Assembly: GCA_903875215.1 (NCBI GenBank)
Contig: CAIQVH010000031.1
Span: 310,001-374,000, forward strand
DNA: 64,000 nt
Reading direction: 5' to 3'
From: an uncultured Anaerolineae bacterium
Lineage (GTDB): Bacteria > Chloroflexota > Anaerolineae > Anaerolineales > Villigracilaceae
This document shows positions 24,004 through 26,259 of the stretch, piece by piece (position 1 is the first letter of the stretch; each line of letters begins with the position of its first letter). The translations under genes were made by a program, and so were the position numbers. The notes beneath the pieces were generated by a model, which saw only the letters and a program-made list of their open reading frames with translations, had not been told where the DNA came from and searched no databases.

Positions 24004-24936
24004 ATGACCGAAACACGCAAGAAAATCTCCTTGCCCTACCTGTTCGACAAAGTCAGCAAAGGCGAACCGATCACCTGGCTGACCTGTTACGATTACCCGA
24101 CTGCCTACCTGCAGGAGCAAGCCGGAATCGAAATGATCCTGGTCGGTGACAGCCTGGGCATGACCATGCTCGGCTATGAATCGACTCTGCCTGTGACGAT
24201 GGACGACATGATCCGCCACGCCCAGGCTGTGAGACGCGGCGCTACGACCGCTTTTGTCGTCGGCGACATGCCTTACATGACCTACCAGCCCTCGGTTGAA
24301 ACCGCCATCCGAAATGCGGGGCGTTTCATGGCCGAGGCCGGCTGCGACGCGATCAAGCTGGAAGGCGGTGCAGCCATGGCCGACCGCATCCGCGGAATAG
24401 TGGATTCTGGCATCCCGGCTATCGGGCACCTGGGCCTGACTCCGCAATCCGTTTCGGCGCTGGGCGGCTTCAAAGTTCAGGGCAAGGATGCGCGCCTTGC
24501 CAAGAAAATCCTGGATGATGCCAAAGCGCTCGAAAAAGCCGGGGCATTCATGATCCTTCTGGAGATGGTTCCCGACCGGCTGTGCAAGCTGATCACCGAG
24601 CAAGCTGAGAATTGCATCATCATGAGCCTCGGCTCGGGGCCGGATGCCCATGGTCAGCTTTTAATCTATCACGACATGTTTGGCCTTTACCCGCGCTTCA
24701 AGCCAAAAATGGCCAAGGTTTTCGGTAATGCAGGCGAAGTCATCTTAAACGGCCTGAAGGGCTACCACGATGAGGTGATTGGAAAGCAATTCCCGCAGCC
24801 CGAGAACTGGTTTGGGATGAAGGATGACGAATTTGAAGAACTGGGCAAACTGATCGAAGCCGATAAAAACGCTAAATGCGATTGCGACTGCAATTGCGAC
24901 TGCAATTGTGACTGCTGCAAAACCGAGAAGAAATAG
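24004..24936 (+). CDS. panB: 3-methyl-2-oxobutanoate hydroxymethyltransferase with Cys/Asp-rich tail
   Basis: PanB transfers a hydroxymethyl group from methylene-tetrahydrofolate to 2-oxoisovalerate, the first step of pantothenate and CoA synthesis. The 310-residue protein keeps the expected active-site residues: Asp49 and Ser50 (VGDS), Asp88 (VGDMPYM), Lys118 and Glu120 (IKLEGG) and Glu187 (LEMVP). The usual IGIGAG segment is changed to MSLGSG. Residues 292-305 read CDCDCNCDCNCDCC, eight cysteines in 14 residues, followed by KTEKK. This tail is not part of the known PanB fold and is encoded by a short tandem repeat. A GGAGG ribosome site precedes the ATG. No panC or panD is nearby. Confidence 0.88.
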   Translation: MTETRKKISLPYLFDKVSKGEPITWLTCYDYPTAYLQEQAGIEMILVGDSLGMTMLGYESTLPVTMDDMIRHAQAVRRGATTAFVVGDMPYMTYQPSVETAIRNAGRFMAEAGCDAIKLEGGAAMADRIRGIVDSGIPAIGHLGLTPQSVSALGGFKVQGKDARLAKKILDDAKALEKAGAFMILLEMVPDRLCKLITEQAENCIIMSLGSGPDAHGQLLIYHDMFGLYPRFKPKMAKVFGNAGEVILNGLKGYHDEVIGKQFPQPENWFGMKDDEFEELGKLIEADKNAKCDCDCNCDCNCDCCKTEKK

Positions 24937-24945
24937 ACTGGCAAA

Positions 24946-24974
24946 GAGGGCGCTGCGAAACTGGCAGCGCCCTC
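24946..24974 (+). terminator. Hairpin between panB and the next gene
   Basis: GAGGGCGCTGC (24946-24956) is perfectly inverted at 24964-24974 with loop GAAACTG. No T-run follows, and the ribosome site of the next gene lies 10 bases on, so it may be a processing or stability hairpin between co-transcribed genes. Confidence 0.55.
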
Positions 24975-24993
24975 AACGCTTTAAGGAGAAAAA

Positions 24994-26259
24994 ATGGATT
25001 ATCCCTTCCGACAGCTATTGCAAATCCCGCCTTCCCGTTTGGACGAGATCAACAACGTCCTGCTAAACTCCGATTCGAAAGTGATGAATAATTTCATCGC
25101 GGTGGTCGCCAAATATGGCACACCAGAAGAAATTAATGCCAAACACAAAGCCGCGCGCAAGCTCGACAACCTGATGAGAATCGTCGAAGAGCGCGCGCCC
25201 GCTCACATTGCCGATCTGAATTGGTTAATGGAACAACGCAAAAGCGGCGCATTCGCCTCGCTGGCGGAATATCGGCGCAAGGTGTTGGGCGCCAAAGCGG
25301 AGAAAATGTCCTTCGCTGAATCCACCCCTGTCACGCTGGAAGTATCTGCCCTGCAATATTTCCCCTGGGTGCGGGAAATGTGCGAGCGGGCCATCAAAGA
25401 CCGGACTCTGGTTCCCGGCCGCTTTATCGCTGTGCGAAAGATGAAAGAAAGCGAGCTGGATGGCGACCTGCCGGCCATTGTGGCGGCGCTGGATATTATG
25501 GGCGCCTCGTTTGTGGAGACGCTCGACACCAAGGGCACCGATGGCTCAAACCCGCACCTGGGCGGCCCGGCAACCATCACTGGCTATTTTGGCGGCATCG
25601 GCCAGCCCAACGATCACGCCCTGATGTGGCTGGACGAGTTTTTGTATTACTACACCAATTACGGCGTCCAGCATGTGCTGAACTTCAACGCCGGGACGAT
25701 TTTGCTCGGTTTCCTGCTGTATAAACTCGGTGTGGATATCCAGTTCAAGATTTCGGTCTTTTTCGGCTCCGACAACCCCTACCACGCCCTGTGGATTATG
25801 ACCGCCGCCAAGCTGTTCAGCCGCGACGATGGAACTTCCCCGCTGATTGGCTTCAACTGGTCGAACTCGATCAATAACGAGACCATGGAACTGACCGCGC
25901 AATTCCGCAAACAGCTTGGCTTTGAGGATGTGGTGCGCTTCGAACACCATATCACCGAGGCGTACAAAAGCATCATCCTGCAACCCTATGATCGGCGCAA
26001 CGAACTGGTGGCAATTGCCGACCACGTGGCGAATATTTCTGCCAAGCACGAAGGCGGCTTGCCGAGCACAGAAACCACTCGCGAGCACACATCCGACATT
26101 TTGGATTACTTCCGCGCCAAAGATGAAGTCATCGCCAGCGGGCATTGGGACGCGCTGAAGCTCAATTTTATGGACAAGGTCGACGCCTGCAACTCTTCGG
26201 CGCAGATGTTGACCGAGGCCGGGCTCAGCTTTGTGGCGGCGAAAGAATTACACCGCTAG
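24994..26259 (+). CDS. Unrecognised 421-residue protein downstream of panB
   Basis: I do not recognise this family. The protein is soluble, with no signal peptide or membrane segment. Residues 1-120 are helical and charged. The core is rich in glycine/aromatic motifs that look catalytic: VETLDTKGTDGSNPHLGGPA (about 176-195), GYFGGIGQPNDHALMW, HVLNFNAGTILLG, FFGSDNPYHALW and GFNWSNSINNETME. The C-terminal part has conserved-looking histidines (RFEHHITEAYKS, AKHEGGLPSTETTREHTSD). An enzyme acting on a small acid or nucleotide-like substrate is plausible but unproven. TTAAGGAGAAAAA gives a strong ribosome site. It follows panB by 57 bases and ends at a terminator, so the two form an operon. Confidence 0.8.
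   Translation: MDYPFRQLLQIPPSRLDEINNVLLNSDSKVMNNFIAVVAKYGTPEEINAKHKAARKLDNLMRIVEERAPAHIADLNWLMEQRKSGAFASLAEYRRKVLGAKAEKMSFAESTPVTLEVSALQYFPWVREMCERAIKDRTLVPGRFIAVRKMKESELDGDLPAIVAALDIMGASFVETLDTKGTDGSNPHLGGPATITGYFGGIGQPNDHALMWLDEFLYYYTNYGVQHVLNFNAGTILLGFLLYKLGVDIQFKISVFFGSDNPYHALWIMTAAKLFSRDDGTSPLIGFNWSNSINNETMELTAQFRKQLGFEDVVRFEHHITEAYKSIILQPYDRRNELVAIADHVANISAKHEGGLPSTETTREHTSDILDYFRAKDEVIASGHWDALKLNFMDKVDACNSSAQMLTEAGLSFVAAKELHR

Follow-up and report, generated by a model that had tools for sequence, protein, structure and literature searches.

A paralogue of panB in an uncultured Anaerolineae bacterium encodes, behind a complete ketopantoate hydroxymethyltransferase domain, a C-terminal tail in which eight cysteines alternate with aspartate and asparagine. 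Our preferred reading, to which we give a probability of about one in two, is that an intact PanB-fold enzyme of uncertain substrate carries a Cys-Asp tail that is flexible and disordered and serves to bind metals of the soft or borderline kind. The gene, here called PanB2, lies in the window (the whole stretch of DNA that was analyzed, 64,000 nucleotides) with the following features.

24004..24936, plus strand: panB paralogue (PanB2), 310 aa, with an intact ketopantoate hydroxymethyltransferase domain at residues 8-265 and a C-terminal tail
24859..24936, plus strand: C-terminal extension past residue 285, near which most of the paralogue group ends
24877..24918, plus strand: Cys-Asp/Asn run CDCDCNCDCNCDCC, residues 292-305, read directly from the DNA

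The PanB2 domain and its tail

The open reading frame scored 330.7 bits against PF02548 (cut-off, 28.7), 324.1 against NF001452 (272), and 288.6 against TIGR00222 (207.55), all above the curated cut-offs for membership in the PanB family. In an alignment of the paralogue group (alignment A2, 66 rows chosen from 106; alignment A1 has 53 rows chosen from 76), D49, D88, K118, E120, and E187 occupied invariant columns, and they aligned with the same residues of Escherichia coli PanB (1m3u). We take them to be the metal-ligand and catalytic residues, with the roles that they have in the E. coli enzyme, and the view of the initial annotation that the catalytic part is intact at these five positions was thus upheld.

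The AlphaFold2 model of PanB2 had a mean pLDDT of 82, with values of about 48 over residues 291-310. Compared with six PanB entries, it gave Z scores from 27.2 to 34.0 with the tail outside the matched ranges, the best matches being 1o68_B (Z 34.0, rmsd 2.2, 250 aligned) and 1m3u_A (Z 33.1, rmsd 2.4, 252 aligned). By this model comparison PanB2 has the PanB TIM-barrel fold, and the tail is most likely disordered and outside the folded domain. Known PanBs are decamers. PanB2 is therefore like known PanB (PF02548, TIGR00222) in its whole domain, fold, and active-site residues but differs from it in the extra Cys-Asp tail; in the five matched PDB PanBs, no more than 11 residues follow the matched part.

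The genome, a 38-contig assembly, has two panB genes. The canonical one, on contig 18, stands directly before panE (itself over the TIGR00745 cut-off) and reached 390.9 bits with NF001452 versus 324.1 for PanB2, to which its product is 49% identical. Because the genome has this second, canonical panB, the tailed PanB2 is a paralogue, and since it is the canonical gene that adjoins panE elsewhere, PanB2 may, although its active site is intact, act on another substrate. The PanB2 group was found at E ≤ 1e-110 in 87 of the 152 genomes of the window's family. The paralogue of one genome, G038 (L022 / L057), has an in-frame stop at about residue 221.

Residues 292-310, the C-terminal end of the protein, read CDCDCNCDCNCDCCKTEKK, and the DNA at 24877-24936 reads, in the PanB2 frame, TGC GAT TGC GAC TGC AAT TGC GAC TGC AAT TGT GAC TGC TGC AAA ACC GAG AAG AAA TAG. 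Eight Cys fall within the 14 residues of CDCDCNCDCNCDCC, alternating with Asp/Asn, a metallothionein-like density of Cys in CxC and CC motifs. TRF detected a 12-bp tandem repeat at 24877-24915 (approximately 3.2 copies, 92% matches) that encodes part of the tail, and because this repeat is still recognizable, part of the window tail looks recent. Direct reading, frame, and TRF together confirm the earlier description of an eight-Cys alternating tail encoded by a short tandem repeat. No Pfam family matched two tail peptides and no PDB chain matched the window tail, short queries such as these (23-26 residues) being a weak test in both cases.

Two other origins of the run were considered. Pooled over 42 open reading frames of the window (mechanical six-frame calls of at least 250 aa, some surely not genes), Cys made up 0.75% of residues; the last 30 residues of PanB2 have 8 Cys and those of the runner-up 2. 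On this composition, and on the existence of a second tailed species, a chance Cys run was rejected. Readthrough of a stop codon into intergenic DNA is not favored either: PanB2 is separated from the next gene by 57 bp (median, 64 bp), and in the nearest untailed relative the stop is not followed by a Cys-codon run. In G025, which has the other Cys tail, the gap is only 2 bp.

Tails among relatives and their history

The survey of tails covered Chloroflexota-centered searches and PDB PanB matches. It was summarized over 108 distinct proteins of the PanB2 group at 60% identity or more, a count that includes the window's own protein and a few that are cut or interrupted; 96 have 280-289 aa, 5 have 290-299, 6 have at least 300, and 1 is truncated. 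Six family rows stand outside this set (G032, G121, G124, G181, the second G153 copy, and the partial G145 copy), and their genomes yielded no match to C[DN]C[DN]C[DN]C. Long tails occur in 6 of the 108, two of them Cys-rich and four Lys-rich; 101 proteins end without one, and the remaining one is truncated.

The second Cys-rich tail, ACDCGCCDDDDCDCDCDCCKKD, belongs to G025, a genome of another genus, whose PanB paralogue (L004) is 87% identical to PanB2 over residues 3-308. It has nine Cys in its last 30 residues, likewise ends CDCDCDCC-K, and sits at the same position as the window's tail with different codons. An identical protein is found in record MNXJ01000057.1 (Anaerolineae bacterium CG2_30_57_67; L047), among the best 80 of 308 relatives; neither Cys tail has been seen in more than one species. 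G034, the closest relative of the window gene at 93% identity, is without a tail. The comparison of related PanBs proposed by the initial annotation therefore did not find the tail absent from all close relatives, a relative from another genus having a Cys-Asp tail. Lys-rich tails of similar length stand at the same position in four others (L007/L035, L016, L018/L043, and L168; proteins of 307-311 aa), so the composition of the tail turns over. No tailed PanB was found in print, judged by paper titles, which is not proof of absence from the literature.

In a DNA tree of 34 genes (from 42 rows chosen out of 106, 8 being skipped for a different anchoring motif; G171 not among them), the window gene (G000), untailed G034, Cys-tailed G025, and Lys-tailed G006, G009, and G002 formed one clade (83/91). 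Five of the six long tails thus fall in a clade of six rows, the sixth being untailed, and the window gene was nearest to that untailed row, G034 (96/93). The gene of G002 (L043) was flagged in this tree for its unlike letter make-up. The protein tree, with 107 of the 108 proteins (one truncated protein out), also placed G034 beside G000 (98/73), in a three-row clade with G025 (90/81) that had Lys-tailed G006 next to it (82/76); Lys-tailed G009 and G002 stood elsewhere (82/80) and Lys-tailed G171 far away. The clustering of five tails is consequently a feature of the DNA tree, since the protein tree puts G009 and G002 elsewhere. The probability that two random rows of 107 fall in a given three-row clade is 0.0005, for a clade that was picked after seeing it.

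On the DNA tree, a sister relationship of the two Cys-tailed genes was not rejected by an AU test (p 0.404), which is compatible with one origin of the Cys tail or with two. Between the window gene and that of G025, 60 of 121 fourfold sites are different, so an ancestral tail free of selection should be much altered, and the tail was either kept or arose twice. Judging from this divergence, a functionless tail would hardly have kept its alternation, and two separate gains are possible. If the DNA tree is followed, an extension of 22-26 residues may have arisen once in the small clade and then diverged in composition, becoming Lys-rich in three members and Cys-rich in two and being absent in one. 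The Cys run of the window species seems to have been partly expanded via the short 12-bp repeat.

Neighborhood of the gene and spread of the motif

Downstream of PanB2 lie two further features.

24946..24974, plus strand: strong hairpin between PanB2 and the next gene, 11-bp stem and 7-base loop
24994..26259, plus strand: conserved downstream gene, 421 aa, with a model that looks TIM-barrel-like

The predicted RNA fold of 24934-24996 has an energy of -27.8 kcal/mol (z -5.88), and 0 of 200 shuffles were as stable. By eye, G/C-rich inverted repeats are seen at the same place in L005 and L008. In 83 of the 108 distinct cases (the window's own counted) the 421-aa gene comes after PanB2 on the same strand, with a median gap of 64 bp; there was no match to it in 23 cases with at least 1300 bp downstream, and 2 contigs were too short to tell. 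No Pfam or NCBIfam family was found for its product, and its profile matched no PDB sequence up to E 1. The best Foldseek match of the model was 5a6k_B (E 3.5e-4, TM 0.35), and the best with VIA was 5zmu_D (Z 12.3, rmsd 3.3, 216 aligned), although numerous unrelated barrels scored nearly as well; the model hints at a TIM-barrel-like protein and nothing more specific. The three neighboring proteins that were scanned are a MarR-like regulator, an ABC-transporter-like protein (in both cases by matches under cut-offs), and an IMP dehydrogenase (over cut-off), and no metal-related or redox-partner neighbor was recognized among them.

The motif itself was sought more widely. C[DN]C[DN]C[DN]C was present in 6 of 152 genomes of the family and its backwards control in 0 of 152 (counted by eye). 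Seven family loci were read, and those that looked coding, as judged by eye, were PanB in G000 and G025, a radical-SAM protein in G025, and a frame in G016. C[DN]C[DN]CC occurred in 32 of 400 genomes of the order versus 7 of 400 for the backwards control (control counted by eye); within the 30 loci read of 33 places (the other three being in G180, G189, and the second in G197), nothing looked coding apart from the two PanB tails and the G016 frame. Phylum-wide, C[DN]C[DN]C[DN]C was found in 9 of 400 genomes, against 7 of 400 backwards (control counted by eye), so outside the window's family it barely exceeds background, and none of the 10 new loci looked like a gene tail. The window genome has 20 matches to CxCxCxC, of which four overlap one another in the PanB2 tail, versus 18 for the backwards control, with no recognized enzyme tail among the 16 further loci. 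We see no general Cys tag system in these pattern searches.

Some of these loci deserve mention in their own right. The radical-SAM protein (PF04055; L120, G025 contig 74) has CDCDCDCACG near its N terminus and comes from the same genome as the other Cys-tailed PanB. The G016 frame (L115 / L207, contig 4), 78 codons as first read and about 73 aa as a protein, has a dense Cys stretch ending CNCDCDCC; it had no Pfam family over cut-off and is possibly metallothionein-like. L234, in the window genome, may, with its CLCCCCC run, be a membrane protein.

Role of the tail and rival explanations

On our preferred reading, which agrees with a suggestion of the initial annotation, the tail would bind Zn, Cu, Cd, and the like through its thiolates (and carboxylates), in the manner of SlyD with its variable metal-binding tail or as a genetically encoded analogue of phytochelatin. 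We infer metal binding from the density of Cys and its alternation with Asp/Asn, the similar tail found in a second genus despite the divergence at fourfold sites, the PanB fold, the invariant active site, and the predicted disorder of the tail; which metals are bound, and whether activity is affected, is inferred likewise. Against this reading stand the presence of a Cys tail in only 2 of the 108 proteins, its absence from the nearest relative, the Lys-rich tails of four others at the same position, the want of a recognized metal-related neighbor among the three scanned, and, as a weak test, the want of Pfam or PDB matches to the tail peptides.

Several known systems offer precedents. According to PMC7055735, the unstructured tail of SlyD is rich in His, Cys, Asp, and Glu, varies among species, and goes with nickel binding that reversibly inhibits enzyme activity. 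PanB2 would resemble it as an enzyme domain with a variable, unstructured tail rich in metal ligands; unlike SlyD, a PPIase whose tail is also His-rich, PanB2 has no His in its tail, and its metal binding is putative. For plant HMA4, PMC6255694 describes di-Cys motifs in the C-terminal extension that contribute to zinc binding. The PanB2 tail is also like phytochelatins and the synthetic (Glu-Cys)20 peptide EC20, which in PMC4611968 serves to chelate several metals, in that Cys alternates with acidic residues; it differs in having Asp/Asn for Glu, ordinary peptide bonds, and eight Cys and in sitting on an enzyme. PMC6821194 reports a heavy under-representation of Cys in the low-complexity regions of prokaryotes and argues that it is poorly tolerated there, which makes a careless Cys run less likely; in the same paper the metal-linked low-complexity signature is mainly His and Asp, not Cys, which counts against metal binding.

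The serious rival is near-neutral drift, in which a dispensable, exposed C terminus tolerates low-complexity extensions and a 12-bp slippage repeat happened to encode Cys-Asp/Asn with no selected function. We consider it quite possible, if on balance doubtful. Its weight comes from the rarity of long tails (102 of the 108 proteins are without one, the truncated protein included), from their variation, Lys-rich, Cys-rich, or absent even inside one small clade of the DNA tree, from the untailed nearest relative, and from the recognizable, at least partly recent repeat in the window tail. Drift fits less well with Cys-Asp tails in two species despite the divergence at fourfold sites, with the 16 further CxCxCxC loci of the window genome, none recognized as an enzyme tail, and with the scarcity of Cys in prokaryotic low-complexity regions, as reported in PMC6821194.

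The initial annotation had also proposed that the tail senses redox state, a suggestion that gained no support beyond the presence of the thiols. Such a switch, with disulfides formed within or between subunits to gate activity or assembly, would make use of the eight closely spaced thiols and their CxC and CC spacings, but it lacks a recognized redox partner among the three neighbors scanned, and alternation of Cys with acidic residues is nearer to chelating peptides than to known redox switches; we regard it as improbable. An error of sequencing or assembly, for which the short tandem repeat in a 38-contig assembly might speak, would be highly improbable: the other genus has a Cys-Asp tail at the same position in an independent assembly and with different codons (L004; identical L047), the frame is open through the repeat up to the stop, and the repeat, at 39 bp, is shorter than an ordinary read.

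PanB2 and the 421-aa protein point to an unassigned two-gene unit, frequent within the window's family and also represented in other parts of the order. In a bolder version of the metal-binding reading, which we think unlikely, the PanB-fold enzyme of this unit would have acquired a ribosomally encoded phytochelatin-like tail, and soft metal bound by the tails in the oligomer would regulate or supply the enzyme, acting as a metal-responsive switch on one-carbon or branched-keto-acid chemistry. If the tail does bind metal, a metabolic enzyme would here carry a compact chelating tag of Cys and Asp that is natural in origin, and together with the Lys-rich tails at the same position this tag would form a small natural series in which the emergence of metal-binding tails on enzymes could be followed.
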